DNA from: Sphingorhabdus sp. 109
GTDB taxonomy: Bacteria; Pseudomonadota; Alphaproteobacteria; Sphingomonadales; Sphingomonadaceae
DNA: 64,000 nt
Assembly (NCBI RefSeq): GCF_902506555.1
Contig: NZ_LR732707.1
Coordinates: 1,300,803 to 1,364,802 of the forward strand
Direction of reading: 5' to 3'
This document shows positions 17,089-46,881 of this stretch, one piece after another (position 1 is the first letter of the stretch; each line of letters begins with the position of its first letter). A program made the position numbers and the translations under genes. The notes beneath the pieces are model-generated. The model had not been told where the DNA came from. It did not search any database and saw nothing but the letters and a program-made list of their open reading frames with translations.

Positions 17089-17097
17089 TTCAGACGG

Positions 17098-17287: not shown

Positions 17288-18745
17288 ATGACATTACGGA
17301 AATCCGGTTCGATTCTGGCCTTGGCAGCGTTGCTCGCTTCATGCGGCGGCGGTAGCGGAGGCAGCAGCAACAATGTCAGCCTGCCATCCGGCGGTGGGGG
17401 CGGCGCAACCCCGACGCCGACCGGAACGACCTGCTCGTTGCAAAGCCGCCAGAACTGGGCCTTCGACCTGCTCGACGAATGGTATCTCTTCCCCGAGACC
17501 CTGCCCGCCAGCCTCAGCCCCGCGCCTTATGCATCGGTGCAGGACTATATCGATGCGCTCACCGCCACCGCGCGCGGTCAGGGGCGGGATCGCTATTTCA
17601 CCTATATTACCTCGATCGCCGAGGAGAACGCCTTCCTGAACTCCGGCGCGACCGCAGGCTTTGGCATCCGGCTGAGCTATGACAGCAATGCCTCGCGGGT
17701 CTATATTCTCGACGCCTATGAAGGCGCGCCCGCGCTTGCAGCCGGTATCGACCGCGGCGCGGAACTGCTCGCGATCGGAACCAGCAGCAGCAATCTCCAG
17801 ACCGTCACCGCGCTCTTCGCCCAGGGTGGCGCCAGCGCGATCAGCGAGGCGCTCGGTCCCTCGACAGCGGGGACCAGCCGCGTGCTGCGCTTCCGCAACG
17901 CAGCAGGTGTCGAGACCACCACCACGGTGAGCAAAGCCGATTATGCGATCCAGCCCATCTCTCCGCGCTATGGCGTGCAGATCATCGACAATGGCGGCAC
18001 GCAGACCGGCTATGTCAACCTGCGCACATTCATCGACAGCGCCGAGCCGCAATTGCGCGATGCGTTCCAGCAGTTCCGCAACGCCGGTGTGACCGAGCTG
18101 GTCATCGACCTGCGCTACAATGGCGGCGGACTGGTCCGCACCGCCGAGCTGTTCGCCGATCTGCTCGGCCGCGACCGCTTCACCAACCAGGTCCAGGGCG
18201 TGACCCGTTTCCGCGCCAGCAAGGCGGCGAACAACGAGACCCGCAATTTCCAGCCCCAGGCCCAGTCGATCGCCCCGACCCGCATCGCCTTCATCACCAC
18301 CGGCGGCTCGGCCTCGGCCAGCGAGCTGGTGATCAACGCGATGATCCCCTATCTCGACGCCGACATGGCGCTGGTCGGCAGCAATACCTATGGCAAGCCG
18401 GTCGGCCAGATCGGGCTGGACCGGAGTGCCTGCGACGACCGGTTGCGGATCGTTGCCTTTGCCACCGAGAATGCCGACGGCAATGCCAATTATTTCGACG
18501 GTCTCGCCGGTTCGCTGACCAACAGTTGCCAGGCGGCCGATGATGTCAGCCTGCCGCTGGGCGATCCAGGCGAAGCCTCTACCGCCCGCGCTCTCGGCTT
18601 CCTGTCCGGCGCCGCCTGCACGCCGATCAGCAGCGCGGGATCCGGTACGATTGCCGGACAGCGCGAAGCCCTGTCCCTGCCCCGCCAGTTGCTGATGCCG
18701 GCGCGACCAACCCCGGCCCAGCGCGAGGTTCCGGGTTCCTTCTGA
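17288..18745 (+). CDS. Lipoprotein S41-family peptidase (C-terminal processing protease type)
   Basis: 485 residues. The lipobox LLASC puts the lipidated Cys at 19, and a Gly/Ser/Thr/Pro-rich linker follows to about residue 48. A PDZ-like region spans about 120-215 and the S41 core about 235-430. The nucleophile lies in GGSASASELV (340-349), and the general base is Lys370 in NTYGKPVGQ. The conserved VIDLRYNGGG is at 272-281. It is predicted to be an envelope-anchored serine protease with an unknown target. The globin gene starts one base after the stop, so this is the head of a three-gene operon. Confidence 0.88.
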   Translation: MTLRKSGSILALAALLASCGGGSGGSSNNVSLPSGGGGGATPTPTGTTCSLQSRQNWAFDLLDEWYLFPETLPASLSPAPYASVQDYIDALTATARGQGRDRYFTYITSIAEENAFLNSGATAGFGIRLSYDSNASRVYILDAYEGAPALAAGIDRGAELLAIGTSSSNLQTVTALFAQGGASAISEALGPSTAGTSRVLRFRNAAGVETTTTVSKADYAIQPISPRYGVQIIDNGGTQTGYVNLRTFIDSAEPQLRDAFQQFRNAGVTELVIDLRYNGGGLVRTAELFADLLGRDRFTNQVQGVTRFRASKAANNETRNFQPQAQSIAPTRIAFITTGGSASASELVINAMIPYLDADMALVGSNTYGKPVGQIGLDRSACDDRLRIVAFATENADGNANYFDGLAGSLTNSCQAADDVSLPLGDPGEASTARALGFLSGAACTPISSAGSGTIAGQREALSLPRQLLMPARPTPAQREVPGSF

Positions 18746-18746
18746 G

Positions 18747-19184
18747 ATGACCGCGCACCAGACCGACCATGCCGTGATGGAGGACAGTCTCGAGGCGCTG
18801 GGCGACCGTTATGACGGCATCGCCGCCGAACTGTTCGACCGGTTCATCGCCGATCATCCGCATTACGCTCCGGTCTTCCTCAACCCCGAAGCGGCGCGCG
18901 AGCGGATGACCCGGGAGACTCTCGAGGCGATGCTCGGGCTGGCGGCGGACGAATGGTGGGTCGACCATGCGGTCACCAATTTCATCGACCTGCATCACAA
19001 TTATGCCGACTTCACCCCGCACGACTATGCCGCCTGGTTTGCGCTGGTGATCGAGACAATGGCCAGGCGCGCCGGTGCCGACTGGCCCGCCGGCGCGAGC
19101 GCCGCGTGGCAACGGCAGGCCGACGGACTGGTCGCCAGGGTTGCGACCGTCGCGCGCAACGCCGAAGTGCCGGTGCGGCCATGA
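18747..19184 (+). CDS. Single-domain globin
   Basis: 145 residues, all alpha-helical. The segment NFIDLHHNYADFTPHDY aligns with the F-helix/FG region of bacterial globins (His followed by ..Y and P.HY), so one of the adjacent His residues is the likely proximal haem ligand. Distal residues are less clear. It may bind O2 or NO or act as a sensor, but no output domain is attached. It starts 1 nt after the S41 stop, and its own stop overlaps the ATG of the DUF985 gene (ATGA), indicating translational coupling. Confidence 0.7.
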   Translation: MTAHQTDHAVMEDSLEALGDRYDGIAAELFDRFIADHPHYAPVFLNPEAARERMTRETLEAMLGLAADEWWVDHAVTNFIDLHHNYADFTPHDYAAWFALVIETMARRAGADWPAGASAAWQRQADGLVARVATVARNAEVPVRP

Positions 19185-19609
19185 GCGAGGCGCGGACCAT
19201 CATCGAACAGCTCGGCCTGCAACCGCATCCCGAGGGCGGCTGGTATCGCGAGACCTGGCGCGCGCCGGCGGCGGATGGCGAGCGGGCGAGTGCAACCGCG
19301 ATCTATTTCCTGCTTGAAGAGGGCCAGGGATCGCACTGGCACCGGGTCGATGCCACCGAAGTCTGGCTTTGGCACGCGGGCAGCCCGCTTGCGCTGGGCA
19401 TAGCGGAACAGGATAGCGGGCCAGTGTCGACGATCCGCCTTGGTCCCGATATCATCGCCGGACACAGGCCCCAGCATCGCATCCCGACCGGCTATTGGCA
19501 GGCCGCGCAGGCCGATCAGGGCTGGGCGCTGGTTAGCTGCATCGTCTCGCCGGGCTTTGAATTTTCCGGCTTCGAACTGGCTCCGGAAGACTGGTCGCCC
19601 GGCGGCTGA
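19181..19609 (+). CDS. DUF985 cupin protein
   Basis: 142 residues. The opening PHPEGGWYRETWR, the central GSHWHRVDATEVW and the C-terminal CIVSPGFEFSGFEL are hallmarks of the DUF985 (cupin_5) family. The family has a single beta-barrel that may bind a metal or sugar; no enzymatic function is established here. It overlaps the globin gene by 4 bp and is the last gene of the S41-globin-DUF985 operon. It converges on the GNAT gene. Confidence 0.88.
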   Translation: MSEARTIIEQLGLQPHPEGGWYRETWRAPAADGERASATAIYFLLEEGQGSHWHRVDATEVWLWHAGSPLALGIAEQDSGPVSTIRLGPDIIAGHRPQHRIPTGYWQAAQADQGWALVSCIVSPGFEFSGFELAPEDWSPGG

Positions 19610-19637
19610 GCATCGCGGAGCATGGCGCCCCGCCCTC

Positions 19638-20144
19638 TCAGGATGGCCCGTAGAATAGCGGATGGAAGGCGACCACCGCCTCGGGAACCGCCACCCGCAG
19701 GGGCAATATCTGGTAATAAGCGGCGGGTTCGCCTTCGGGGCACAGATCGGAAAATATCCGAAAGCCGAAACGGCTGTAATAGGCGGGATCGCCGGTCAGC
19801 ACGCAGCCCGCGGCATCGCACTCGCGCAGCTTGGCGATGCCCGCCTCGATCAGCCGGCTGCCGATATGCTGCCCCTGCAAGTCCGGCTCCACCGCGACCG
19901 GCCCCAAACTATACCAGCCGGGCGACCCGTCGGCGGCAAAAGCCTCGGTAAAGGTCACCTGCCCCACGACGACCCCGTCCCGCTCCGCCACCAGCGAAAT
20001 TGCCAGCGCGCCAGCGTCGCGAAACCGGTCGATCAGATCCTGCTCATTGCCACCGGCATAGTCCATCGGCGCAAAGGCGCGCCGGGTAATATCGTGGATC
20101 GCTTCCCGATCGGCGGGCTTTTCCGGTCGAATGACCAGGCTCAT
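19638..20144 (-). CDS. GNAT-family N-acetyltransferase (YhbS-like)
   Basis: 168 residues. Acetyl-CoA binding motif A is seen as LGPVAVEPDLQGQHIGSRLI (residues about 82-101), followed by GDPAYYSRFGF, which is the signature of YhbS-type acetyltransferases. The N-terminal IRPEKPADREAIHDI is also typical. The acceptor is unknown. The start at 20144 overlaps the stop of the upstream DUF1772 gene (ATGA), so the two are translationally coupled. Confidence 0.88.
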   Translation of the reverse strand: MSLVIRPEKPADREAIHDITRRAFAPMDYAGGNEQDLIDRFRDAGALAISLVAERDGVVVGQVTFTEAFAADGSPGWYSLGPVAVEPDLQGQHIGSRLIEAGIAKLRECDAAGCVLTGDPAYYSRFGFRIFSDLCPEGEPAAYYQILPLRVAVPEAVVAFHPLFYGPS

Positions 20145-20623
20145 CGCGCGGCAATCGCGCCGATCAGCAGGGCCAGCGAGACGGTGCAGCTCACCGTCCG
20201 GACATGGTTCCACGGCAGCCAGCGCTGCATATAGCGGCGCCACACCGCCTCGGCGTCCGGCCCCGCTGCGTCGGTCGTCTCGAGCGCATTGTTGAGCGGG
20301 ACATTGGCCGCCGCGGTCACCACCAGCATGCCGATGACATAGAGCGCCCCGCCCACCACCATCGGCCCGGCGCCCGGCGTGCCCCACTGCATCACCCCGA
20401 AGACCACGAGCAACAGGCAGGCGAGACTGCTGGCGAAAAACAGCGGCAGGAACAGCGACCGCACTATGATCCGGTTGATCGCCTGCATCGCCACCATGCC
20501 GGTCGCCCGCCCCGTCGCGTCGAGCGACTGCATGACAAAGGCGGAAAAGGCAAAATAGACCCCCGCCATGATCCCGACCGACAGCGCGGCGAACCAGAGC
20601 GTTGCGGTGATCACGTCTTCCAT
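20141..20623 (-). CDS. DUF1772 (anthrone oxygenase-like) membrane protein
   Basis: 160 residues with four predicted transmembrane helices (about 5-30, 55-80, 86-108, 140-158). The conserved NVPLNNAL motif of DUF1772 follows helix 3, and W...W..N-type residues (RWLPWNHVRT) precede helix 4. Fungal relatives act as anthrone oxygenases; bacterial members are uncharacterised. GAGGAG lies about 8 nt before the ATG. It is followed directly by the GNAT gene. Confidence 0.85.
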   Translation of the reverse strand: MEDVITATLWFAALSVGIMAGVYFAFSAFVMQSLDATGRATGMVAMQAINRIIVRSLFLPLFFASSLACLLLVVFGVMQWGTPGAGPMVVGGALYVIGMLVVTAAANVPLNNALETTDAAGPDAEAVWRRYMQRWLPWNHVRTVSCTVSLALLIGAIAAR

Positions 20624-20753
20624 CGGATATTCTCCTCGTCTGTTGCGCGGGGGACCGGTCCGTCTTGCGGCGAAATAAAGCCCGAGTCACGTTTTTCCCG
20701 CCACGCCGCTCCGCGAACTTCACACAGACGCGGGTTTTTTCGGTTGTGCGCGT

Positions 20754-20852
20754 CGTCATCCTGAACTTATTTCAGGACCCCGCAAGGCAAGCGCGCAATC
20801 GGTGGAGGTCCTGAGCCGAAGGCCACCGCAGGTAAACAAGTTCAGGATGACG
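20754..20852. repeat. Palindromic repeat element (REP-like), copy 1
   Basis: Perfect 15-bp inverted repeat: CGTCATCCTGAACTT at 20754-20768 and its complement at 20838-20852, with an inner partly paired 69-bp region. The same GTCATCCTGAAC motif recurs near 23.8 kb. This repeat type is intergenic in many sphingomonads. Confidence 0.75.
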
Positions 20853-20988
20853 AGTGCTCCGCCCCCACCCCCACAAAGCCGATTGCATTCCCCTCCCTGC
20901 TGCGCGACACTCCTCTGAATAGCCCCGTGCAAAAGCAGCCCGCTTTATGATATCTTCCTCTCCACCCACCACAACAGGAGGCCCCATC

Positions 20989-21432
20989 ATGACCACCCCC
21001 CAACCGACCCACCGCCAGGGCCATTGCCTCTGCGGTGCCATCACCATCACCGCGACACAGGCGGCCAGCCATGTCGATGCCTGTCATTGCCGGATGTGCC
21101 GGCGCTGGGGTGGCGGGCCGTTTGTCGAGATTGATTGCGGGACGGATGTGGCGATCGGCGGGGCGGAGCGGATGACCGTCTACAGCTCGTCGGAATGGGC
21201 GGAGCGGGCCTTTTGCGGGGATTGCGGGTCGCATCTCTTCTATCGCCTGAAGGGCTCGGGCGAACATATGGTCTGCGCCGGTCTGTTCGACGACGCGACC
21301 GACAAGGCCGACATCAGCTTGCGGCGGCAGGTGTTTATTGACGAGAAGCCGTCTTATTACAGCTTTGCCGGGGACAGCGAGACGCTGACCGGGGCGGAGC
21401 TGTTCGCGATGATCGAGGCGGAGGGGGAATAG
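20989..21432 (+). CDS. GFA-family zinc protein
   Basis: 147 residues. Cysteine motifs GHCLCGAI, CHCRMCRRWGG and CGDCGSHLFY provide the two zinc sites of the GFA fold. The HxxCxxCRRWGG-type motif places it in the common uncharacterised GFA subgroup, different from the protein at 164-568, which has CHCKNCQR. The ATG at 20989 has a perfect AGGAGG about 8 nt upstream and is preferred over an in-frame ATG at 20947. It stands alone between repeat elements. Confidence 0.88.
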   Translation: MTTPQPTHRQGHCLCGAITITATQAASHVDACHCRMCRRWGGGPFVEIDCGTDVAIGGAERMTVYSSSEWAERAFCGDCGSHLFYRLKGSGEHMVCAGLFDDATDKADISLRRQVFIDEKPSYYSFAGDSETLTGAELFAMIEAEGE

Positions 21433-21463
21433 ACAAGGCGCGGCGCGCGCAAACTGTCCTTCG

Positions 21464-21491
21464 ACAAGCGCAGGACGAACGGTTTGCTCCG
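21464..21491. repeat. Short REP-like palindrome
   Basis: GTCCTTCGACAAGCGCAGGAC is an imperfect palindrome of the form widely repeated between sphingomonad genes. It lies between two convergent genes and could also act as a transcript end. Confidence 0.5.
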
Positions 21492-21508
21492 CTTCGCTGC
21501 GCCCCTCA

Positions 21509-22375
21509 TCATTCCGTGCCCCGCCCCAGCATCCGTTCCGCCCGGACCAGCGCGCGCTGCGCGTAGCTTTTCAGACGATTGCCGCCCGGATAGCCGCGCG
21601 GCGAGGACGGGCTGAGGCCGAGCTTGCGCAGACGGCTGTTGAAGCGGCAGGCGTCGGCGTGGTGGAAGCTCCATTCGCTGCGCCAGGTCAGCGACAGCGA
21701 GATCGAGACTTCGTCATCGACCTTGACCCAGTGCGGCCCGAGGATCGGCACATAAATGGCCTCGCCGGGTGTGACCCGGATCGGCTGGCCGCGATCCGCC
21801 CATTCCTCGCGCCATGACAGGTTACGCGGGCCGCCATTGAAATATTGCTCGAAAAACGGATCCGGGATCATCTCGGTATCGCCGGCGGGGAAGAAGGTCA
21901 TCGTTTTGCTGCCGCGCGCCTGGAACAGGATATTATAGTCGGGGTCGAAATGCAGCGGCGTCACCGCGCCCGGCGAGGAAATGAAGATAAACCCCTCGAG
22001 CCGCATCATTTTTCCGGTGCGCGGTTCGACCACCGGTTCGATCGTCGCCAGCACGTCCCGCATCAGCTGCGCATAGGCGGGGTCCTGGTCGATGGTCTTG
22101 AGCAGCACCCAGGAGCCGGCGCTCTCGATCTGCGCGATCGTCTGGTGGACGTCGAGGCCGGTATAGGGCGTCTCGTCATTGCGGATGCCCAGCGGCAGGT
22201 CGGTGGCGGCGTTAAACTCGATCGATTCCGGGCGCAGCCGGCGAGCCAGCGCCGCCAGCGCGTCCAGCTGCAGCAGCGGATGGTCGGCGATCCGGTGCTG
22301 CAAATGGCGCGGAGCCAGCGGATAGGCGGTGGCAAGCGCGGCGATAGTCTCGGGCGTGAAAGGCTGGCTGTGCAA
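21509..22375 (-). CDS. Cupin-like (JmjC-type) oxygenase
   Basis: 288 residues. The Fe(II) motif HFD lies in TPLHFDPDYN (about residues 138-147), and a distal His in GPHWVKV about 80 residues later completes the facial triad, after the PGEAIYVPILGPHW segment typical of cupin_8 proteins. It is probably a 2-oxoglutarate-dependent hydroxylase; the substrate (protein or small molecule) is unknown. The best start is TTG at 22375 with AGGA about 8 nt upstream, as no in-frame ATG is available near the N terminus. Confidence 0.8.
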   Translation of the reverse strand: MHSQPFTPETIAALATAYPLAPRHLQHRIADHPLLQLDALAALARRLRPESIEFNAATDLPLGIRNDETPYTGLDVHQTIAQIESAGSWVLLKTIDQDPAYAQLMRDVLATIEPVVEPRTGKMMRLEGFIFISSPGAVTPLHFDPDYNILFQARGSKTMTFFPAGDTEMIPDPFFEQYFNGGPRNLSWREEWADRGQPIRVTPGEAIYVPILGPHWVKVDDEVSISLSLTWRSEWSFHHADACRFNSRLRKLGLSPSSPRGYPGGNRLKSYAQRALVRAERMLGRGTE

Positions 22376-26702: not shown

Positions 26703-26763
26703 CGCGTCTCTCCTTCTGTCCTGAGGGAGAAAGAGCGTATCCGGGATGCCCAAATAACCGCTC

Positions 26764-26862
26764 CCTCCCTACGCCGGTAAGCCCGCACGAGCGGGGCCGG
26801 ATCAGGTTCTGCGGGTCGGGCGACGTTACGCGCCCCTCTCAGTCAAACGACTCCCCGGGGAA
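26764..26862 (-). promoter_or_regulatory. TPP riboswitch (thi box)
   Basis: Read on the minus strand, the leader contains CTGAGAG, then GAACCTGATCCGG, then TTACCGGCGTAGGGAGGG, in the order and spacing of the TPP aptamer. It is followed by about 60 nt to the ATG at 26702. That stretch can pair TCTCC with the GGAGA of the ribosome-binding site, so translational control is plausible. It should repress the operon when thiamine pyrophosphate is abundant. Confidence 0.93.
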
Positions 26863-26878
26863 TGGACCCAGTTTAGGC

Positions 26879-27726: not shown

Positions 27727-29523
27727 ATGCTTGAAAATGTAAGCCAGATCGCAATTTATGCTGGCACTCCCTTGGTCGGTTTGCTCATCTTTGCGCTGAT
27801 CCTCACCCGCCTGTACAAGCGCGCGTCGAAGGAAATCGCTTTCGTCCGGACCGGTTTCGGCGGCGAGAAAGTGGTAATGAACGGCGGCGCCATGGTGTTC
27901 CCGGTCTTCCATGAAACCATGCCGGTGAACATGAACACCGTGCGGCTGGCGGTCGAGCGCAACAATGTCGACGCGCTGATCACGCTGGATCGCCTGCGGA
28001 TCGATGTGAAGGCGGAGTTTTACGTACGCGTCCGTCAGGATGCCCAGTCGCTGGCAATGGCGGCCCAGACTCTCGGCCTGCGGACGATGCAGCCGGAGAT
28101 GCTGAAGGACCTGGTCGAGGGCAAGTTCGTCGACGCGCTTCGTTCGGTTGCTGCGGGCATGACGATGAACGAATTGCACGAACAGCGCGCCGATTTCGTT
28201 CAAAAGGTGCAACAGGCCTCGTCTAGCGATCTGGCGATGAACGGCCTGGAACTGGAATCGGTATCGCTCACCGGGCTGGACCAGACCAGCATCGAACATT
28301 TCAACGCCAATAACGCCTTTGACGCCGAGGGTCTGACCAAGCTGACCGAGCAGATCGAACTGCGTAAGAAAGCGCGCAACGATATCGAGCAGGATACCCG
28401 CGTGCAGATCGAGACGAAGAATCTCCAGGCCGACCAGCGCTCTTTCGAAATCAGCCGGGACAATGAATTTGCCCGGCTCGAGCAGGAGCGCGAGGTCGAG
28501 GTTCGCCGGGCCATCCAGGCATCGGAGGTGGCCAAGGAACAGGCTGGTCGCGATCGCGACGCCAAGGACGCGCAGATCAAGGCGAAACAGCAGGTCGACA
28601 GCAGCCAGATTGAGGCCGACCGGGCTGTCGAAGAGGCGCGGATCGCCCAGACCCAGGCGATCGAAATCGCCCGTCAGGAGCAGCAGATCGCGATCCAGAA
28701 CAAGTCGCGCGAGGAAAGCCAGGCCAAGGCGGAAGCCGACGCGGCCCGCGCCAAGGCCGTCGCCGCCGAGGAACAGGTCACCAGCGCACGGGAAACCGAA
28801 ATCGCCGACCGCGACAAGCGCATCGAACTGATCGAGGCGTCGAAACAGGCCGAGCGTCAGGCCATTGGCGTAAAGGTCCAGGCCGAAGCGGAAAAGGAAG
28901 CCGCCGGGAACCGGGCCGCCGCCATGCGCCTCGATGCCGAAGGCGAAGCAGAAGCAGAGAAGCTTCGCGCCGAAGCGGCGCGGGTGCGTTTCGAGGTCGA
29001 AGCTGCCGGTCAACGCGCGATCAACGAAGCGGCGAACATATTGTCCTCCGACCAGATCTCGCTGCAGACCAAAATGGCCTTGCTCAAGGTTTTGCCAGAA
29101 GTCATCCGGGAATCGGCCAAGCCAATGGAGGCGATCGATTCGATCAAAATCGTCCAGCTCGACGGGATCAACCAGACTGGCAGCGGCGGCAATGGTGTCG
29201 CCAGCAAGGGCGGAGCCGGCAATGGAAGCAGCGGCAATCTGGCAACCGATGCGGTTTCTGCCGCCCTCTCCTATCGCGCCCAAGCGCCGGTCATTGATGG
29301 CCTGATGAAGGAACTGGGCCTGGACGGATCCTCGCTGGAAAATCTGGTATCGGGGGCGACCAAGGTCACGCAGGAATCCGCTGCTGAGGCTCCAGCCAAA
29401 ACCGCGCTGGAGGAGAAACCGGCCAAAGCGGCGCTCCGCTCGGACAAAAAGGATGACGGCCCGGCCGCAGCCAAGGCAGCGGCTCCGGAAAGCGATCCTG
29501 GAGAAAAACCGGAGGCGGACTGA
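27727..29523 (+). CDS. yqiK: Flotillin-like SPFH protein (YqiK type)
   Basis: 598 residues. A short N-terminal membrane segment (IYAGTPLVGLLIFALILTRLY) is followed by the SPFH/PHB domain (about 30-200) and a long alpha-helical coiled coil with Glu/Ala/Arg/Lys-rich repeats (about 210-430). The C-terminal region begins with a Gly/Ser-rich linker (about 485-500) and ends in a low-complexity Ala/Lys/Glu tail. Flotillins oligomerise on the inner membrane and organise microdomains. AAAGAGAG lies upstream of the ATG. Pairing with yqiJ is the classical context. Confidence 0.92.
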   Translation: MLENVSQIAIYAGTPLVGLLIFALILTRLYKRASKEIAFVRTGFGGEKVVMNGGAMVFPVFHETMPVNMNTVRLAVERNNVDALITLDRLRIDVKAEFYVRVRQDAQSLAMAAQTLGLRTMQPEMLKDLVEGKFVDALRSVAAGMTMNELHEQRADFVQKVQQASSSDLAMNGLELESVSLTGLDQTSIEHFNANNAFDAEGLTKLTEQIELRKKARNDIEQDTRVQIETKNLQADQRSFEISRDNEFARLEQEREVEVRRAIQASEVAKEQAGRDRDAKDAQIKAKQQVDSSQIEADRAVEEARIAQTQAIEIARQEQQIAIQNKSREESQAKAEADAARAKAVAAEEQVTSARETEIADRDKRIELIEASKQAERQAIGVKVQAEAEKEAAGNRAAAMRLDAEGEAEAEKLRAEAARVRFEVEAAGQRAINEAANILSSDQISLQTKMALLKVLPEVIRESAKPMEAIDSIKIVQLDGINQTGSGGNGVASKGGAGNGSSGNLATDAVSAALSYRAQAPVIDGLMKELGLDGSSLENLVSGATKVTQESAAEAPAKTALEEKPAKAALRSDKKDDGPAAAKAAAPESDPGEKPEAD

Positions 29524-29562
29524 ACAGGCGGCCCGTCAACGGCCGCCCCATTCACGGGTCTG

Positions 29563-30429
29563 CTAGAAAGTATATCCCACGCCGATGGCGCCGAAAAACT
29601 GGTTGGCGCTGCCGCGGATCGAGGTCACCGGAGACCGTTTCGGGTCGCCGAGCATGCGGGAATAGCCGCCGAGAAAAATCATGCTGAAACCGCCGTTGGT
29701 GACGTCGCCGTCCAGATCAACCGCGGTCAGCATCGTCGCGCCGACATTTTTCCAGCCGCTGTCTGCGGAGAAGGTCGGCAGGCCACTGGCCGCCGAGCCG
29801 GTCGGGGATATGCTGAAATAATAGTCGGCATAATCATCGTCGACATATTCCGCGTTGATCGAAAAGCTGGTGGCGATGCCGCGGCTGAGCGGCGTGAAAT
29901 AGGTCAGACTGGGGAAGACGACCATGCCGTCATGCGCGCCCGCGACATCCCAGCGCACATCAACCTGCGCCGTCAGCGAGTCATAGGGATTGAGCAAGCG
30001 ATTGACCTGAACGCCGGCAAACGGTCCGACCTCGACCGCGAAGTCGAGCTTGCCGAGCGATTTGACCACCTCGTCCTCGATGGAATTGTGCCGGTCAAAC
30101 CGCGCCCGGACCACCGGACCGAAAATGAAATCGACTTTTGCGCCATCGCGATCGGGGATGAAGTCTAGGGCTACGCCCGGTCCCCGCGGCTGAAAATCCA
30201 CGCCTCCGAAACTGCCCAGCACCACCGGCAGAGGCGATACGGTATAGTCGTCGGATCCTTCATAGCTAGACCCCACCGCCACGCCGATTCCGGCGGTCAG
30301 ATAGTCACCGTCAAAAACCGTTTCCCCGGCCGGCATCGGTGCCGGCTCCTCCTGTGCGAAAAGCGGAGAAGACAAGCCGAGCCCAAGGGAGAGTGCGACG
30401 GCATGGCGGAAGATTTTCGATTGTTTCAA
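29563..30429 (-). CDS. MipA/OmpV-family outer-membrane protein
   Basis: 288 residues. The signal peptide (LSLGLGLSSPLFAQ) is followed by a beta-barrel that ends GVGYTF with terminal Phe. The segments GIGVAVGSSYEGSDDY and AVDLDGDVTNGG are typical of the family. MipA in E. coli scaffolds peptidoglycan enzymes; OmpV relatives may act as porins. The start is most likely TTG at 30429 with AGGGAAACAG upstream. It converges on the flotillin gene; a GGCGGCC/GGCCGCC hairpin (29527-29547) lies between the stops. Confidence 0.88.
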   Translation of the reverse strand: MKQSKIFRHAVALSLGLGLSSPLFAQEEPAPMPAGETVFDGDYLTAGIGVAVGSSYEGSDDYTVSPLPVVLGSFGGVDFQPRGPGVALDFIPDRDGAKVDFIFGPVVRARFDRHNSIEDEVVKSLGKLDFAVEVGPFAGVQVNRLLNPYDSLTAQVDVRWDVAGAHDGMVVFPSLTYFTPLSRGIATSFSINAEYVDDDYADYYFSISPTGSAASGLPTFSADSGWKNVGATMLTAVDLDGDVTNGGFSMIFLGGYSRMLGDPKRSPVTSIRGSANQFFGAIGVGYTF

Positions 30430-38917: not shown

Positions 38918-39145
38918 TTCTATTCCCCTCAGAATAACATCTCCGATGATTGCCGGACGTTTTCCCCGTGCAACATCCTGTTCCCCATGCAAATTTCTGA
39001 TATTACTATAACCCAATTATCAGAAAAGCCAAATAGTCCGTTTTTCCGGCATTATATGTCGGAAAATTACGCTTCTGCTTGCCATAAATTACGACTTCGG
39101 ACAGAATCAGTTTTTAAAAGCAATGCAAATTTTGGGAGCCCTGCC

Positions 39146-40438
39146 ATGACCGTTTCACTTTCCGACCCGCTGACACTTCCCTGTGGCGCCGCCCTGCCCA
39201 ACAGGATCGCCAAGGCCGCGATGACCGAAGGCATGGCCACGCCGGACGGGGCGCCGACAAGGACACTGGAGCGGTTGTACGGATTATGGTCCGACGGTGG
39301 CGCGGGCATGTTGCTCAGCGGCAATATCCAGATTGACCGCGACCATCTGGAACGGCCGGGGAATGTTGTCATCGACCGGCCGGCGGATGACGCCATGATG
39401 GCAGCGCTCGCCAGCTGGGCCCAGGCGGCAACGCGCAACGGCAATCATTTCTGGGCACAGATCAGCCACGCCGGGAGACAAACACAAAGCAATGTCAACC
39501 AACATCCCAAGGCGCCATCGGCGGTCAAGCTCGGCCTGCCCGGAGGCCAGTTCGGCGAACCGGTAGCGCTGACCATCGACGAGATTGAAGATCTCGTCGC
39601 CCGCTTCGCCCAGGCTGCCAAAACCTGTCAGACAGCCGGCTTTACCGGCGCGCAGATCCACGCCGCCCACGGTTACCTGCTGAGCAGCTTTCTCAGCCCG
39701 CGATCCAACCAGCGCACTGACAACTATGGCGGCAGCCTTGAAAACCGGGCGCGTTTTCTGCTCGCGGTCGTGGCGAGGACCCGCGCAGCCGTCGGTCCCG
39801 AATTCCCGATTTCGGTCAAGCTGAACAGCGCCGATTTCCAGAAGGGCGGGTTCAACTTCGAGGACAGCCTGCAGGTCGTCCGCTGGCTGGAGGACGCCAG
39901 TGTCGATCTGGTGGAAATCTCCGGTGGCACTTATGAACAGCCGGCGCTGATGGGGTCTGACGGAATCGAGGAAAAAGAGGAGCAGAATCTCGCACCGTCG
40001 ACCAAGGCTCGCGAGGCCTATTTTGTCGATTTCGCCAAGGCAATGCAGGATGCGGTCAAGGTGCCGCTGATGGTGACCGGCGGGTTCCGGACCCGGAAAG
40101 CGATGGAATCCGCGCTTGCCGACGGTGCTGCCGACCTGATCGGACTGGGCCGCCCGATGTGCGTGATAACCGATGCGCCGAAGCAATTGCTGGAAGGATT
40201 GGAAGCATTGCCACGGTTCGAGGACAGGCTTCACCTGCTTCCCGACTGGCTGGGCTTTCTGATGCGTTTCCAGACGGTCAAGGCCGTTGCCAGTTTCGCG
40301 GTCATTTTCTGGTTCTATGAACAGCTCGAAAATCTGGGAAAAAGCGGCAAAACCGACGCAAAACTTGGCGTTTTCAAGGCATTTCTGGCGGTAGAGAAAC
40401 GAAACAAGCGCATTTTGGCCATGCGCAGCCCGGACTGA
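39146..40438 (+). CDS. Old Yellow Enzyme-family NADH:flavin oxidoreductase
   Basis: 430 residues from ATG 39146, preceded by GGGAG; an open frame extends upstream but lacks homology. The TIM-barrel FMN motifs are clear: AQISHAGRQ (active-site His), IHAAHGYLLSSFLSP, NQRTDNYGGSLENRARF and TGGFRTRKAM, followed by GLGRPM. It reduces activated C=C bonds (enones, nitro-alkenes) with NAD(P)H. A C-terminal extension with a hydrophobic patch (AVASFAVIFWFYE) is longer than in classical OYEs. It converges on the lipoxygenase gene, with only 51 bp between the stops; OYEs such as plant OPR reduce oxylipin enones. Confidence 0.9.
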   Translation: MTVSLSDPLTLPCGAALPNRIAKAAMTEGMATPDGAPTRTLERLYGLWSDGGAGMLLSGNIQIDRDHLERPGNVVIDRPADDAMMAALASWAQAATRNGNHFWAQISHAGRQTQSNVNQHPKAPSAVKLGLPGGQFGEPVALTIDEIEDLVARFAQAAKTCQTAGFTGAQIHAAHGYLLSSFLSPRSNQRTDNYGGSLENRARFLLAVVARTRAAVGPEFPISVKLNSADFQKGGFNFEDSLQVVRWLEDASVDLVEISGGTYEQPALMGSDGIEEKEEQNLAPSTKAREAYFVDFAKAMQDAVKVPLMVTGGFRTRKAMESALADGAADLIGLGRPMCVITDAPKQLLEGLEALPRFEDRLHLLPDWLGFLMRFQTVKAVASFAVIFWFYEQLENLGKSGKTDAKLGVFKAFLAVEKRNKRILAMRSPD

Positions 40439-40489: not shown

Positions 40490-42469
40490 CTAGATATTGG
40501 TGCTCGTGGGAATCTGGCTCGGTTGCAGATAGACATAGGGATGCATCCGGCGCTGGTTGCGCGCGACGATCCGCGACTCCACCGCGCGTAGCCCGGCCTG
40601 GAAACGTGCCAGTGGCCCTTCATCACCGGTGATCGCCGGATCCTGGAACCATGGCTTGTAGGGAAAACGGTTGGTGCGATAATCGCCGAGCGGTCGGTAA
40701 TAGACCGAACCCAGCAGTTCCAGCGATGACAATTGCAGCAATCCCAGAGACATGGGCGGCATATATTCGAGCCATTCTTCCTTGTTGTGATTCTGCTGCT
40801 CGGTCGGCGCGGCGGTCCAGCCGGCGCCGGTCACCGCTGGCGCAAAGGTCATCAGCGTGCGCTGCGGGAAATTGACCGCGGCATGCTGGGCGCTGGCGGT
40901 GAAGATGATCATCGTGCAAACGTCGATCAGCTGGGCCCGGGAGGTGATCGGCCGGAAACCGACGATATGGCCCTCCGAAGCGATGGAAGAGGCCCAAAGA
41001 GCCAGTTCGCTGTCAGCGGTCACCGCCTCGTCATCGCTGTAATAGATGTTGATATATTGCGAGGCCCAGTCGTGGATAGCATCCCAGACCAGCAAGGCAT
41101 CATCGCGATAGGGATAGTCCGGCAGGATCGCCGGATCCGCGACCTTGCGCGCAGCAAAATCGACCGGCGTCATCTTCCGGTAGAAGTCAAAAGACAGGCG
41201 CGCCTGGACGGCGGCCAACTGGCTGGACTCGATCGTCCCGCCGAAGAAATCGTCGATCGGACCGCCCTTGTTGATCAATGTTTCGACCGCCAGATTGTTG
41301 ATGAACAATGTGCCTTCGAAATGCGGCACCAGCAACGACCAGAGCGGATGCACTTCGGCGAGATTGCGGCGGGTCGCCACGGCAATCGCCTCGCTCACCA
41401 GATGGGTGCCGGCCAGATGGACGAACAGTTCGTGATAGTTGCAGTCGGCGACCTGGACGACAAATTTCGCCATTTCCCAGCCCCATTTTTCCGACGCGGC
41501 ATCCGAGGGTGTCATCACCGGATACTGGCTGTTGTCCTGACCGCACTGGATCGCGACCGCCTTCAGCGACGATCCGCCCGGCGGCACGGCAAACAGCGCC
41601 ATCGGCCGGTAGACATATTTTGCGTGACCTTTCCAGACCCCGGCAACAAGCACTTCCAGATCGGTGTAATCGCAGAGAAAAACCCGTCCTTCGGCAAGCG
41701 CCTTGCTCAGGCTGTCATCCCCCATGACCGCCGCATATTGAGCGGCTGTTACCGGGAAATTGTCGGGCATCCGGTCGATCCCCTGCAGCAGCATCGGATT
41801 GGGGCCGGCAACCCGCAAGCGGGCAAATTGGTCGTCATCCTGGAATGTATAGGCGATACCGGGGACCGGCAGCGTCTGGTACAGATCGCGATAGGCCTCG
41901 ATCGAACGGCTATGCGCGACCTCTTCGGCCTTCAGCACATCGATAATCACGGTGAGAATGTCGCGCAGGGCGCTGTCATGCGATTTCAGTTCCTCGATGT
42001 CCGCGCCCTGTTCCGCTTCCTCGATGCTGCTTTCGAGGCCCGGACCAGCTTTGGCCACGCGGTGTTTTTCACGCAGGGCTTCTACCTTCGACCTGATCTC
42101 GCCGGCATCGGCCAGCGCGTCGTCAATGACTGTCTTCGCCGCGTCGTCGAGACCGGAATAGATCGGTTTCAGCAGCACCGCCTTGACGTTCTCGAGTATG
42201 GCGATGCTGACTTCGAGCACCTTGAACCACCATTCGATCGACGGCTGGTCGTCGGGCGGAACATGCGTGGCCAGGGGCACGCCAGGCAGGCTGGCGATAT
42301 CGGTCGTCCACTGATATTGCGTCGATGTCGCATTGATCTGTGCCCGGCGCTGCGCGCGCTGCTCCGGCGTGTCATTCTGTGGCAGGCTGGGATCGCTTGG
42401 GCCGCGTTTGACCGGCCCTCCCGAGACAGTGTGACTGGCGATAATCGAGCTGGCATTTTCAAAGGACAT
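40490..42469 (-). CDS. Bacterial lipoxygenase
   Basis: 659 residues. Lipoxygenases insert O2 into polyunsaturated fatty acids at a non-haem iron. All five ligand positions are present: His351 and His356 in VHLAGTHLVSEAI, His529 and Asn533 in AQHAAVNFPQ, and the C-terminal Ile659. The region from 351 to about 409 aligns without gaps to the mammalian 15-LOX core. The Coffa-site residue is Ala394 (in FINNLAVE), which normally predicts S-hydroperoxides. There is no PLAT domain; residues about 85-200 are helical. There is no clear signal peptide. GGGGGAGG precedes the ATG. Divergent from a GGDEF gene. Confidence 0.93.
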   Translation of the reverse strand: MSFENASSIIASHTVSGGPVKRGPSDPSLPQNDTPEQRAQRRAQINATSTQYQWTTDIASLPGVPLATHVPPDDQPSIEWWFKVLEVSIAILENVKAVLLKPIYSGLDDAAKTVIDDALADAGEIRSKVEALREKHRVAKAGPGLESSIEEAEQGADIEELKSHDSALRDILTVIIDVLKAEEVAHSRSIEAYRDLYQTLPVPGIAYTFQDDDQFARLRVAGPNPMLLQGIDRMPDNFPVTAAQYAAVMGDDSLSKALAEGRVFLCDYTDLEVLVAGVWKGHAKYVYRPMALFAVPPGGSSLKAVAIQCGQDNSQYPVMTPSDAASEKWGWEMAKFVVQVADCNYHELFVHLAGTHLVSEAIAVATRRNLAEVHPLWSLLVPHFEGTLFINNLAVETLINKGGPIDDFFGGTIESSQLAAVQARLSFDFYRKMTPVDFAARKVADPAILPDYPYRDDALLVWDAIHDWASQYINIYYSDDEAVTADSELALWASSIASEGHIVGFRPITSRAQLIDVCTMIIFTASAQHAAVNFPQRTLMTFAPAVTGAGWTAAPTEQQNHNKEEWLEYMPPMSLGLLQLSSLELLGSVYYRPLGDYRTNRFPYKPWFQDPAITGDEGPLARFQAGLRAVESRIVARNQRRMHPYVYLQPSQIPTSTNI

Positions 42470-42635
42470 GATGACCTCCCCCGTTGGATTTGAGACCGGC
42501 TCATGCTAAATATTTCTGGTTAATTTGCCGTAAACAGGCATTTTACATTTCCCCTGCAGACCCTTCAAAAGCTGGGGTTCAGCACAATTTACCAGGCTTA
42601 ACGCGACGTTTACATTTAGACGCTAGCAACGCTGC

Positions 42636-43796
42636 ATGCAGTCATTCATCCGACAGTTTTTAAAACGTCTTATACCGCCGGTCCCGGAAGCTGTCCGGGA
42701 CGAGTTCGCGATATTGAGCGCGACCAGGCTGCAGAATCAGTCACGGGCCCTTTTTCTCGCCATGTTCCTGACCATTCCCTTCGTGCTCTACGCCTCCAGC
42801 GTCGGCGCCGAACCGTGGATTCGCTACGGCATGCCGCTCGCCATGGGCAGTTGCTGCCTGATCGGCTATATCTCGCTGATCAAGGACCGCAACGCTTCGG
42901 GCAGCCCGGACCAGGCCCGGCAATTCATTGCCGAAGCAACGTTTTTTTCCGCCACCATATGCGGTCTCGTCAGCATCTGGTGCGTGCTCAGCTATGTCCA
43001 CGCACCGGAGAATATGAAGCTTTTCTATCCCTTCACCCTCGCCATGGGCTCGCTGACGACCATTTACACGCTGGCGACGATCAGGCTCGCGGCAATTCTC
43101 AACATCATCATAGGGATCATGCCGATCACGATCATCCTGCTGCTGTCGGGTGATCCCCTCGACTGGTCGGCCGCCGCCAGCCTGATCATGGTGACGACAT
43201 TTCTATACCGGCTGATCACCCAGCAGAATGACCAGTTCATCCATATGCTGGTCCTGCAGAATGACATGAGCGAACTGGCGCATACCGATCCGCTGACCGG
43301 CCTGTTCAACCGCCGGGTTCTCGCCGAAAAGCTTGCTCGCCAGATCGACGGGGGTGATCACGAACGGCCATTTTCGGTTGCCCTGCTGGATCTAGACGGG
43401 TTCAAGCCGGTCAATGACCAGTTCGGCCATCCGGTCGGCGATCAATTGCTGGTCGAAGTCGCGCGGCGTCTCCGCCAGACCTGCGGCGACAACGGCATCG
43501 TTGCACGCATGGGCGGCGATGAATTTGCCATTCTGCTGTCACCGGAATCGGCCATTACCGACACGGCCTGCGCAGACCATTTGCTGGCCGCGCTGGTTCC
43601 CCCTTGCGTCGTTCAGGATCATGTTATCCGCGTACGGGCAAGTATCGGCATTGCCACCTGGCCGGTCGACGGCAAAAGCGCGAACAGCCTGCTCGAAGCC
43701 GCTGACAAACAGCTTTATGCCGTGAAAGACTATAGCGCCAAAGCGCAGCATTTCGTGGCAAAGAAAGCCAAAAAACTCCGCACCACTACCGGATAA
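42636..43796 (+). CDS. Membrane diguanylate cyclase (GGDEF)
   Basis: 386 residues. Five or six transmembrane helices (about 40-200) form an uncharacterised sensor region, and residues about 215-380 form a GGDEF domain. DPLTGLFNRR, LLDLDGFKPVND and RMGGDEFAILL are intact, so cyclic di-GMP synthesis is expected. The I-site position nine to six residues before GGDEF reads GDNG rather than RxxD, so product inhibition is probably absent. No ribosome-binding site is obvious. It is divergent from the lipoxygenase gene; 166 bp separate them. Confidence 0.92.
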   Translation: MQSFIRQFLKRLIPPVPEAVRDEFAILSATRLQNQSRALFLAMFLTIPFVLYASSVGAEPWIRYGMPLAMGSCCLIGYISLIKDRNASGSPDQARQFIAEATFFSATICGLVSIWCVLSYVHAPENMKLFYPFTLAMGSLTTIYTLATIRLAAILNIIIGIMPITIILLLSGDPLDWSAAASLIMVTTFLYRLITQQNDQFIHMLVLQNDMSELAHTDPLTGLFNRRVLAEKLARQIDGGDHERPFSVALLDLDGFKPVNDQFGHPVGDQLLVEVARRLRQTCGDNGIVARMGGDEFAILLSPESAITDTACADHLLAALVPPCVVQDHVIRVRASIGIATWPVDGKSANSLLEAADKQLYAVKDYSAKAQHFVAKKAKKLRTTTG

Positions 43797-43817: not shown

Positions 43818-45503
43818 CTAGTCCAGCTCTTCGGCTCGCAGCGTCTTGCGGTCCAGCTTGCCGATCATCGTCTTGGGCAGGCTGTCACGGACCACCACGC
43901 CGACGACGCGCTCATGCTTGCCCAGCTGCGGGTTGAGCCAGTCTTTCAGTTCTTCGCCGGTCACCGTGCTGCCCGGCTCCAGCGAGACATAGGCTTTCGG
44001 GCTCTCTCCGCGATAGTCGTCGGGGACGCCGATTACCAGCGCTTCCCTGACCGCCTCATGCTTGTACAGCACTTCCTCGACCTGGCTCGGAAACACCTTG
44101 AAACCCCCAACCGCGATCATGTCCTTCAGCCGGTCGACAATCTTTATATAGCCGTCTTCGTCAATCGTCGCGACATCACCGGTGCGCAGAAATCCGTCGA
44201 CAAAGACCTTCTCGTCTTCATCGGGCAGATTCCAGTAGCCCTGCATCACCTGCGGTCCGGAGAAAATCAATTCGCCCGGCTCGCCATCCGGTGCGGCCTT
44301 TGTCGGGTCGGCCTTGTCGACCAGCTTGACCAATGTGCCGGGGACCGGCTGGCCGATCGTGCCGGGCTTGTTGAGCCCTTCGTAGGGATTGGCGCTGACC
44401 ACGCCGCAGCTTTCGGTCAGGCCATAGCCTTCGACCAGTTTCGCGCCGGTTTTGGCCTCGAATTTGGTCTTCAGTTCCATCGGCAAAGGCGCGCCACCGG
44501 AAACACAGACCTTGAGCGACGAGAAATCGGTCTTGTCGATGTCCGGATGGTCGAGCAGCGCCTGATACATGGTCGGCACGCCCGGCATGGCGGTTATCTT
44601 GTTCCGGCCGATGGCCTTCAATGTCTGCTTCGCGTCGAAGCGCGGCAGCATCACGATTTCGCCGCCCCGCTGGACCGTGCGGTTGAGCACGGCGCTGTTG
44701 GCGAAAACATGGAAAAACGGAAGCACCCCCATCAGCCGGTCGGATTGGTCAATATAGGGATCGATATTGTTGATCTGCCGCGCGTTGGCAGTGAGATTCT
44801 GATGGCTGCACATCGCGCCCTTGGGCGTACCGGTGGTGCCGCCGGTATATTGCAGCAGGGCGATATCCCGTTCCGGACGGATATTGGGCGCCTTGTAAAC
44901 GCCATCATTATCGATCAGGTCGGAAAAAGTGGTGATCCGCTCATCTTCGGGTTGCGGACTGCTCTCCTTGCGGCGAAACAGCGAGTAGAACAGCGACTTT
45001 CCCGCCGGCAGCGCCCCGGCGATGCTGCCGACCACCAGCCGTTCGAGGCTTGACTGTTCCAGCACCTTGTAAGCGGTCGGGAACAGCGCGGTAGCCGATA
45101 GCGTGAACAGAATTTTTGTTCCGCTATCCTCTACCTGATGATTGAGTTCTTCCACCGTATAGAGCGGCGAGAAGTTGACGACCGTCGCGCCGATTGCCAT
45201 CGCACCGTAATAGGCACTCACATAATGCGGCACATTGGGCAGGAACAGGCCGATCCGGTCGCCCTTGCCAATCCCCATGTCCTGCAGCCCCTTGGCCACG
45301 CGGACCACGCCGGCCGCAACTTCGCTATAGCTATATTTGCGGCCCATAAAATCAAGCAGATTGGCCTCCCCGCGCCGGCCGGCAGAGCGGAAAAACATGC
45401 CGGGCATCGACAGGGGCGAGTAAAACTGATCCCAGGGCGTGGGATGATTATAATGCGATTTCCAGATCGGTGGCTGGTCGGAATTGCTGTCTGTCATTGA
45501 CAT
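43818..45503 (-). CDS. Long-chain fatty acyl-CoA ligase (FadD-like)
   Basis: 561 residues. The AMP-binding P-loop YTGGTTGTPKGAMCSH, the A5 motif EGYGLTESCG and the A8 motif DGFLRTGDVATIDEDGY are complete. The C-terminal Lys of KTMIGKLDRK is the adenylation lysine. It activates fatty (or similar carboxylic) acids to CoA thioesters for beta-oxidation or lipid synthesis. The N-terminal IWKSHY plus HPTPWDQFYSPLSM is a sphingomonad-style opening. It converges on the GGDEF gene and is divergent from the MFS transporter gene with 91 bp between them. ATG at 45497 is an alternative start. Confidence 0.92.
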   Translation of the reverse strand: MSMTDSNSDQPPIWKSHYNHPTPWDQFYSPLSMPGMFFRSAGRRGEANLLDFMGRKYSYSEVAAGVVRVAKGLQDMGIGKGDRIGLFLPNVPHYVSAYYGAMAIGATVVNFSPLYTVEELNHQVEDSGTKILFTLSATALFPTAYKVLEQSSLERLVVGSIAGALPAGKSLFYSLFRRKESSPQPEDERITTFSDLIDNDGVYKAPNIRPERDIALLQYTGGTTGTPKGAMCSHQNLTANARQINNIDPYIDQSDRLMGVLPFFHVFANSAVLNRTVQRGGEIVMLPRFDAKQTLKAIGRNKITAMPGVPTMYQALLDHPDIDKTDFSSLKVCVSGGAPLPMELKTKFEAKTGAKLVEGYGLTESCGVVSANPYEGLNKPGTIGQPVPGTLVKLVDKADPTKAAPDGEPGELIFSGPQVMQGYWNLPDEDEKVFVDGFLRTGDVATIDEDGYIKIVDRLKDMIAVGGFKVFPSQVEEVLYKHEAVREALVIGVPDDYRGESPKAYVSLEPGSTVTGEELKDWLNPQLGKHERVVGVVVRDSLPKTMIGKLDRKTLRAEELD

Positions 45504-45594: not shown

Positions 45595-46881
45595 ATGAAC
45601 GAATCCGCTCCCCAACCTGCCGCCGGCCGATCATCTCTGGTCTTCGTGTTTCTCGTTGTGCTCATCGACATGCTGGGCTTTGGCATCATCATGCCGGTCC
45701 TGCCGAAGCTGATCACCAGCATCACCGGCGACACGATATCCGATGCGGCCGTCTATGCCGGCTGGCTCGCCTTTGCCTATGCGGCGATGCAATTTGTCTT
45801 TGGTCCGGTGATCGGCAATCTGTCCGACCGTTTCGGCCGGCGTCCGGTGTTGCTCGGCGCGCTGGGCGGCTATGCCATCGCCTATTTGCTGATGGGATTT
45901 GCCGCCTCGATAATATGGCTCTTCGCCGCGCGGATCATCGCCGGCATCATGGGCGCCAGTTTCAGCACCGCCTATGCCTATATTGCCGACATCTCCCCGC
46001 CCGAAAAACGGGCGCAGAATTTTGGCCTGATCGGCGCAGCCTTCGGACTAGGTTTCATTATCGGACCGGCGCTCGGCGGCCTATTGGGTGAATATGGCGC
46101 CCGCCTGCCCTTTTTCGCAGCCAGCGCGCTCGCTGCGCTCAATCTGCTGTTCGGCTATTTCTTGCTCAAGGAAAGCCTGCCGGCCGAAAAACGGCGGCCT
46201 TTCAAGCTGGCCCGCGCCAATGCGCTGGTCGCGCTGAAAGGCCTGAGCGGCCAGAACAGGATTGTTCTGTGGTATGCATCTGCACTGACCATCTGGATGA
46301 CAGCCCATGTCGTCTACCCGATCATATTTGCCTTTTATGCGATCGAAGCCTTTGGCTGGAGCGAGTGGACCGTGGGCATGGCGCTGGCCTGTGTCGGCGT
46401 CGGTGCCGCCATCGTCCAGGGCCTGCTGATCCGCGTCCTGATCCCGCGGATCGGCGAACGCAATGCGGTCATTCTCGGCGCGATATCCATGGCCGCCAGT
46501 TCGATATTCTATGTCGTGGCCGGTCCCGAGCAGGGCTGGCTGATCTTCATCGCGATACCGGTCGGATCACTGCAGGGATTGTTCCAGCCGTCGATCAACG
46601 GGCTGATGAGCAACGCCGTGTCGGACGAGACGCAAGGCGAATTGCAGGGCGCGGTCGCCAGTCTGCAAAGCACCGCCTCGGTGATCGGACCGCCACTGTT
46701 TGCTGGCGTGTTCGCCGCTTTCACCGTGGCTGGATCTCTCTATTATCTGCCCGGAGCCCCCTTCGGTCTGGCCGGGATTGTTTCTCTCGTCGCGCTGGGC
46801 GTTTTCCTGCGTGGCTATGCAATGCACTGCTCCAGCGACGAGGTCGAGCCACCGGTCGACGCCAGGTCGATCACCAGCTAG
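45595..46881 (+). CDS. MFS transporter of the Tet/TCR multidrug group
   Basis: 428 residues with 12 predicted helices. Motif A between helices 2 and 3 reads GNLSDRFGRRPVLL. The motif-C-like GLIGAAFGLGFIIGPALGG in helix 5 is typical of drug/H+ antiporters, and the N-terminal DMLGFGIIMPVLP matches Tet-type efflux pumps. It exports a drug or toxic compound by proton antiport; the substrate is not predictable, and tetracycline resistance should not be assumed. It converges on the MBL hydrolase gene with a 4-bp overlap. Confidence 0.88.
   Translation: MNESAPQPAAGRSSLVFVFLVVLIDMLGFGIIMPVLPKLITSITGDTISDAAVYAGWLAFAYAAMQFVFGPVIGNLSDRFGRRPVLLGALGGYAIAYLLMGFAASIIWLFAARIIAGIMGASFSTAYAYIADISPPEKRAQNFGLIGAAFGLGFIIGPALGGLLGEYGARLPFFAASALAALNLLFGYFLLKESLPAEKRRPFKLARANALVALKGLSGQNRIVLWYASALTIWMTAHVVYPIIFAFYAIEAFGWSEWTVGMALACVGVGAAIVQGLLIRVLIPRIGERNAVILGAISMAASSIFYVVAGPEQGWLIFIAIPVGSLQGLFQPSINGLMSNAVSDETQGELQGAVASLQSTASVIGPPLFAGVFAAFTVAGSLYYLPGAPFGLAGIVSLVALGVFLRGYAMHCSSDEVEPPVDARSITS

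Follow-up and report, generated by a model that had tools for sequence, protein, structure and literature searches.

A lipoxygenase (LOX) gene of Sphingorhabdus sp. 109 stands head to head with the gene for a predicted membrane diguanylate cyclase (DGC), and the same pairing was found in all 33 LOX-bearing genomes of the family Sphingomonadaceae that were examined, 13 from the genus (this one included) and 20 further. Both genes lie in the 64,000-nucleotide stretch analysed here (the window; positions 1,300,803 to 1,364,802 of the forward strand of contig NZ_LR732707.1), where they are transcribed divergently from one intergenic region. Lipoxygenases occur sporadically in a small fraction of bacteria, and what they do for the cell has mostly been studied in a single opportunistic pathogen. 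The conserved divergent cyclase is a more informative feature than the enzyme, and was missed by an earlier reading of the window made from the letters alone (the sequence-only reading). The features that make up the pair are:

40490..42469, minus strand: intact lipoxygenase of the LoxA branch, 659 residues (PF00305, alignment to Pseudomonas aeruginosa LOX structures, Foldseek)
42470..42635, no strand: intergenic region common to both divergent genes, 166 bp
42636..43796, plus strand: membrane DGC, 386 residues, hydrophobic helices followed by a GGDEF domain (PF00990, E 5.6e-41; hydropathy; structural model)
43512..43526, plus strand: GGDEF active-site motif of the cyclase (GG[DE]EF intact in 33/33 paired cyclases)

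Within the genus the two genes are present or absent together. LOX was found in 13 of the 32 genomes, and an orthologue of the cyclase, 61-100% identical, in exactly the same 13, the other cyclase matches at 1e-40 being paralogues of at most 34% identity. Fifteen of the 19 genomes that have neither gene are at least 97% complete, and four are less than 90% complete. The OYE gene, the convergent neighbour of LOX, is present in 31 of the 32 genomes. In the 14 of the 19 LOX-negative genomes that were read at the OYE locus, the block from crtB to OYE is kept, and the genes for LOX, the paired cyclase, the ligase, the MFS transporter and the MBL protein are not beside it. In one congener, G022, the LOX-DGC pair is located elsewhere in the chromosome, away from the OYE gene.

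With greater distance the rest of the neighbourhood is lost and the cyclase stays. Nine named contigs in the species-genome collection (L002-L010) carry LOX at 66-86% identity; six of them (L003-L008) keep most or all of the window neighbourhood, L002, a short contig, has four of its genes, and in L009 and L010 the cyclase is the only window neighbour kept beside LOX. At all 20 loci outside the genus the cyclase is head to head with LOX, even though LOX identity falls to 47% and cyclase identity to 36%; eight other window neighbours that were tested had no match at any of these 20 loci. All 33 pairs are divergent, with an intergenic distance of 86-224 bp. A comparison of flanking genes at 22 loci, in which the genus was represented by the window and G022, resolved nine groups sharing at least two flanking genes, or eight groups if one gene suffices. 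The paired cyclase was the best and longest match in the six genomes searched, with paralogues scoring lower, and pairwise distances between LOX proteins track those between their cyclases (r=0.957; Mantel, 0/2000; n=32). This comparison, together with the dN/dS and 32-protein pocket analyses below, was made without L141, whose LOX contains stop codons. No LOX without a DGC was found in the family sample. With 15 GGDEF matches across the 3.6 Mb of the Sphingorhabdus sp. 109 genome, chance adjacency at one given place is unlikely. A defence role is not indicated by PADLOC, which matched neither LOX nor the cyclase. Among the matches listed in a search of open-access literature, covering titles and the starts of abstracts, no description of a LOX-cyclase pair was found. 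The linkage is a conserved one; the enzyme is of an already known kind, and the pair is new as far as the literature was searched.

The LOX open reading frame has the limits given by the sequence-only reading, with an ATG start, 659 codons and a C-terminal Ile, and upstream of the ATG the frame meets a stop within 36 bp with no further start. The sequence-only reading, which called it a complete bacterial lipoxygenase without a PLAT domain, had proposed a profile search and a structure prediction as checks; the profile search upholds it, and the predicted fold matches that of a solved LOX. The protein matches the Pfam family Lipoxygenase (PF00305) with E 2.6e-65 and 221.6 bits against a cut-off of 23.6; this is the sole Pfam family matched, PLAT giving no hit, and no NCBIfam model names the protein. 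The closest solved structures are those of P. aeruginosa LoxA (PA-LOX; 4rpe and 4g32), which align over residues 26-659 to the same C-terminus with E ~1e-163. Foldseek, given the AlphaFold model (pLDDT 75.2, pTM 0.82), also ranked PA-LOX structures first (E 5e-41, 42-44% identity, TM 0.76-0.81). In that model residues 533-551 and 655-659 have a pLDDT below 50, and the predicted placing of Asn533 and Ile659 at one metal site therefore rests on alignment to solved LOXs. The ratio of nonsynonymous to synonymous substitution (dN/dS) is 0.06-0.17 against five congeners, indicating that the gene is maintained. The product belongs to the lipoxygenase family, in the Pseudomonas LoxA branch, and dioxygenase activity on polyunsaturated fatty acids (PUFAs) is predicted for it.

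The enzyme itself is ordinary for its lineage, with close relatives already annotated in databases. The best-named relatives belong to Parasphingorhabdus, Sphingorhabdus and Sphingopyxis and are labelled 'arachidonate 15-lipoxygenase' or 'lipoxygenase family protein'. Proteins named from Sphingopyxis are mostly 57-58% identical to the Sphingorhabdus sp. 109 LOX; one metagenome-assembled genome labelled Sphingopyxis reaches 82%. In samples that are not full surveys, and with thresholds that differ from the 1e-3 applied to the genus, LOX occurred in 23 of 397 family genomes (E<=1e-60), 2 of 385 class genomes and 4 of 398 phylum genomes (both E<=1e-30), Sphingorhabdus sp. 109 being counted in each, which agrees with the remark that lipoxygenases are uncommon in bacteria. 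As to a mobile or plasmid origin of the gene, the matches on plasmids are remote relatives (9 records, all below 60% identity). Three further observations concern LOX loci at large. A second LOX-like stretch, of 39-42% identity, is present in one congener besides its paired LOX (L024, L025; G006:C45:65225-66712); a genome of another family of the class has two tandem LOX genes, 31-32% identical to the query (L210, G803:C36); and on two Rhodococcus plasmids (L224, L225) LOX lies each time between an acyl-ACP thioesterase gene before it and a YncE-family gene after it.

The residues expected to bind iron and to shape the substrate pocket are encoded on the minus strand as follows:

41441..41443, minus strand: Borngraber-1 position, Cys343
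41402..41419, minus strand: codons 351-356, with iron ligands His351 and His356
41288..41290, minus strand: Coffa residue, Ala394
41243..41248, minus strand: Sloane positions, Phe408 and Phe409
40871..40885, minus strand: codons 529-533, with iron ligands His529 and Asn533
40493..40495, minus strand: C-terminal ligand, Ile659

Every one of 54 aligned sequences (that of Sphingorhabdus sp. 109 included) has the five ligand residues, reported as intact by the sequence-only reading, and Ala394, and these share alignment columns with what we take to be the ligands and Coffa alanine of PA-LOX. Cys343 is presumably the Borngraber-1 position, an assignment made by alignment, with the positions of the triad taken in part from the accessible part of PMC6612559. 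In 32 proteins the pocket types are unmixed: Cys343 always occurs with Phe408 (15 proteins) and Gly343 always with Ile408 (17 proteins), while Phe409 is found in all 32. The Cys343/Phe408 type comprises the genus and its two nearest loci, and Gly343/Ile408 the rest of the family; one protein of the wider set of 54 has Ile343. Phe408 and Phe409 align with Met and Phe of PA-LOX.

The interpretation given by the sequence-only reading stands in part, its S-specific pocket being a prediction. The Coffa alanine is present and invariant; S specificity is not established by it, as an Ala at this site is a tendency toward the S product and not proof. Sphingopyxis macrogoltabida, from the same bacterial group, reportedly has an arachidonate 9S-lipoxygenase (said to be the work of Kim, 2022), and kinship with that enzyme, assuming orthology, would be the best support for an S product. 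Both the stereochemistry and the regiospecificity of the Sphingorhabdus sp. 109 LOX are thus predictions. Its Cys343/Phe408 differ from the Gly343/Ile408 of family LOXs outside the closest group, and the bulkier pair could shift regiospecificity away from the 9S reported for Sphingopyxis. The earlier remark that Phe408 and Phe409 may alter pocket depth gains from the covariation of residues 343 and 408. The counterpoint to both pocket predictions is Myxococcus fulvus LOX1, in which, according to the accessible part of PMC6612559, specificity was unchanged by the Ala-to-Gly and Sloane mutations and activity was lost with the Borngraber-1 mutation. The natural C343/F408 and G343/I408 variants provide material for work on regiospecificity.

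The absence of an obvious signal peptide, remarked on by the sequence-only reading, is common to the sphingomonad LOX clade, as judged from the N-termini. No hydrophobic leader was seen by eye in 52 of 53 of these; P0048 lacks the N-terminus, and in P0081, which begins with a longer and mildly hydrophobic stretch, the start codon may have been mis-called. Over 32 proteins, no 12-residue window within the first 41 residues exceeds a hydropathy of 1.5, and the upstream frame of the Sphingorhabdus sp. 109 gene closes within the 36 bp noted above. The enzyme therefore likely stays in the cytoplasm. It shares the LoxA-type architecture of PA-LOX (4g32, 4rpe, 5ir4), in which an N-terminal helical segment takes the place of PLAT, as well as the ligand and Coffa columns, but at 42-45% identity and without a signal peptide it belongs to the LoxA branch and is not the secreted LoxA; Cys343 and Phe408 replace the Glu and Met of PA-LOX. 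The genetic settings also differ, since PA-LOX forms an operon with PA1168 and, in the accessible part of PMC8271024, is not described as head to head with a cyclase. Two further bacterial LOXs that lack PLAT and end in Ile are Enhygromyxa salina LOX (8x8f) and Cyanothece CspLOX2 (5med); in contrast to PA-LOX they match best over residues 186/189 to 659, with a weak N-terminal piece, at ~40% and ~30% identity. That the enzyme could be secreted and directed at a host, as in P. aeruginosa, is suggested by the common branch, the full-length architecture and the level of identity, but the missing signal peptide, and an upstream frame with no room for one, make this scarcely credible.

The partner gene encodes a predicted diguanylate cyclase, and synthesis of cyclic di-GMP (c-di-GMP) is predicted from its GGDEF domain. 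The best match of the full-length model is the membrane cyclase ImcA of P. aeruginosa (8wcn), over 367 columns with TM 0.68 and 23% identity. The region between the two genes contains two boxes that resemble binding sites of CtrA:

42517..42534, minus strand: LOX-facing CtrA-like box TTTA-N7-TTAACCA, ~54 bp before the LOX start; only match in the window
42598..42612, plus strand: cyclase-facing CtrA-like box TTAA-N7-TTTA, 38 bp before the cyclase start

An alignment of ten intergenic regions displayed TTTAC-N6-TTAACCA before LOX. CtrA sites are quoted as TTAA-N7-TTAAC and TTAACCAT in the accessible parts of PMC3692519 and PMC6180460; the aligned motif fits these with one mismatch, and each box of the window has one mismatch to TTAA-N7-TTAA. 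The exact 8-mer TTAACCAT is absent from the window because here TTAACCA is followed by another base. On the LOX-facing strand, TTAACCA was found at 23 of the 33 loci (10/13 in the genus, 13/20 outside; shuffle mean 0.435, maximum 2/33), and TTWA-N7-TTAAC at 14 of 33, against 0.085 in shuffles. Facing the cyclase, TTAA-N7-TTWA occurs at 20 of the 33 loci (13/13 in the genus, 7/20 outside), always 38-40 bp from the start (shuffle mean 0.41, maximum 2), and a TTAA lies 36-41 bp before the cyclase start at 29 of 33. The long form of the LOX box had no match in 100 shuffles. CtrA is encoded in the genome (421.7-422.3 bits against a curated cut-off of 350). CtrA-like boxes thus precede both start codons at most loci, and binding and regulation by CtrA are predicted.

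The linkage is an observation; from it we infer the mechanism. LOX and the cyclase probably form one unit, with LOX the predicted output of a CtrA/c-di-GMP switch to surface-attached life. Bound at the conserved boxes, CtrA would control the two genes together, and the membrane helices of the cyclase would sense a cue, perhaps one from lipids or the membrane, in response to which the enzyme would raise c-di-GMP. The probably cytoplasmic LOX would oxygenate imported PUFAs (those of algae or other eukaryotes, for instance) to S-hydroperoxides, which would act as signals, or the enzyme would clear lipids met on the surface. In P. aeruginosa, loxA expression is tied to biofilms and c-di-GMP in the accessible parts of the literature; transcription of PA1168-loxA is lowered by a compound that disturbs c-di-GMP signalling, according to the accessible part of PMC8271024.

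Several results weigh against this view. The cyclase also occurs without LOX. A search with the cyclase matched 38 of the 397 family genomes at 1e-50, all 23 LOX-bearing genomes and 15 of the 374 LOX-negative ones, and no LOX match at 1e-4 was found in the cyclase regions (9.5-17 kb) of these 15. Fourteen were placed in a tree (G170, whose cyclase matched in two pieces, was left out, and paralogues came from forward frames only); nine nest within the paired clade, which implies that the cyclase has a role without LOX, and five fall outside. Nine of the 14 have a TTAA 37-40 bp before one possible start. Four of the LOX-less cyclases outside the paired clade (L200, L201, L204, L205) are each divergent to an open reading frame, perhaps another conserved divergent pair; from the way this frame starts, we take its product to be a glutamyl-tRNA synthetase family protein. 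The boxes have gaps, TTAACCA being missing at 10 of 33 loci and the long cyclase-facing form at 13. Moreover, the motif was picked after viewing ten aligned, mostly genus loci, and shuffles ignore relatedness, which makes the loci outside the genus the fairer test. In G355 (L121/L141) the LOX beside the cyclase is interrupted within the match by two stops, a TAG and a TAA, and is likely a pseudogene; this genome has a second cyclase homologue ~7 kb away. The putative sensor part of the cyclase matches no Pfam sensor family, 50 members having returned GGDEF-type matches and one weak match to 7tm_3. For a source of PUFAs within the cell the genome offers five FA_desaturase matches, none of which reaches an NCBIfam cut-off (two are weak to DesA-family models, two match nothing and one is weak to other models). 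LOX expression and activity, c-di-GMP synthesis and CtrA binding all remain predictions.

The history of the cyclases and the loci outside the family add to these points. In a tree with nine of the 23 paralogues, from forward frames only, a 97/99 branch separates these from the 33 paired cyclases. When all 23 are included, 22 lie outside and the very long-branched L169 joins the paired L128; the paired cyclases come out as a single group in only 30% of the bootstrap trees, with a long-branch warning from the program. The paired cyclases therefore belong largely to one lineage, though a strictly single group is unproven, and may still have one origin; the weaker tree leaves the linkage counts untouched. 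Outside the family, six of seven LOX loci inspected have no adjacent cyclase. The gene tables, which are incomplete, of five of the nine plasmid records (two from Rhodococcus, and Pantoea, Nostoc and Acaryochloris) list no annotated cyclase within 5 kb, and the tandem LOX locus of G803 has no cyclase match in 12 kb. In G1139, from another family (L230, G1139:C58), a remote LOX lies tail to tail with a 1706-residue kinase-AAA-GAF-GGDEF protein; this hints that a LOX-GGDEF link may recur outside the family, or the adjacency may be chance, since the genome has 44 GGDEF matches.

Other explanations of the pairing bear on the same data. The cyclase helices might read LOX products and make c-di-GMP in response, giving a two-gene lipid circuit. 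The conserved pairing, the co-divergence of LOX and cyclase and a helical N-terminal part without a known sensor domain are consistent with such sensing, as is the promotion of biofilms by oxylipins of the P. aeruginosa diol synthase (accessible part of PMC5155153). However, LOX has no export signal, and the cyclase persists without LOX in at least nine genomes, which is unexpected for a dedicated receptor. G154, G185 and G300 keep the flanking genes of their LOX-bearing relative L135 and lack LOX, and G431 resembles L124 with some rearrangement, again with LOX missing. LOX appears to have been lost repeatedly while the cyclase stayed, which speaks for LOX as an output that can be dispensed with rather than for the cyclase as a receptor dedicated to LOX products, and we regard the sensing circuit as unlikely. 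Lower again in probability is a neutral neighbourhood around a bidirectional promoter, inherited from an ancestor, with LOX acting alone in PUFA catabolism or peroxide chemistry. All 33 cases are in one family and the cyclases are largely one lineage, so these are not 33 independent events, and LOX is under purifying selection by itself. Against mere inheritance stand the nine flanking-gene groups, the joint absence of both genes from 19 of 32 genus genomes, the boxes recurring before both start codons, and the asymmetry whereby LOX never occurs without the cyclase in the family sample and the reverse does.

Two enzymes near the pair invite comparison with the jasmonate route of plants:

38990-40438: OYE-family reductase, convergent neighbour of LOX
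43818-45503: acyl-CoA ligase, window neighbour of LOX

LOX, the OYE reductase and the ligase would correspond to plant LOX, OPR and OPC-CoA ligase, and the three enzyme classes do adjoin here and at the close loci L003-L008. The reductase is, however, as much a feature of genomes without LOX (18 of the 19 in the genus), and neither it nor the ligase was matched near LOX at the 20 loci outside the genus (the L009 and L010 genomes included) or at the G022 locus (L098). A jasmonate-like cluster, a very improbable reading, was therefore rejected, as the neighbours do not follow LOX; no search was made for an allene oxide synthase.

Elsewhere in the window, an MFS transporter (45595-46881, plus strand) resembles efflux models of the Tet(A) type, scoring under the curated cut-offs shown, and a thiamine pyrophosphate (TPP) riboswitch lies at 26749-26867 on the minus strand, above the Rfam gathering score. 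G+C content is 0.61-0.67 at 16000-22000, against ~0.58 in most other bins, and one 2-kb bin at 28001-30000 has a strong AT skew of 0.249.

The pairing provides a fixed partner gene for a lipoxygenase in an environmental lineage, and with it a testable hypothesis in which bacterial LOX is an arm of c-di-GMP/CtrA attachment control. Such an output role would fit the published biofilm expression of P. aeruginosa loxA. A bolder proposal, which we put forward tentatively and consider possible rather than probable, is that across the Sphingomonadaceae a cytoplasmic LOX and a membrane DGC, head to head under CtrA, turn contact with eukaryotic PUFAs into a c-di-GMP decision. If true, this would be the first lipoxygenase hard-wired to bacterial second-messenger signalling, as far as the literature was searched.

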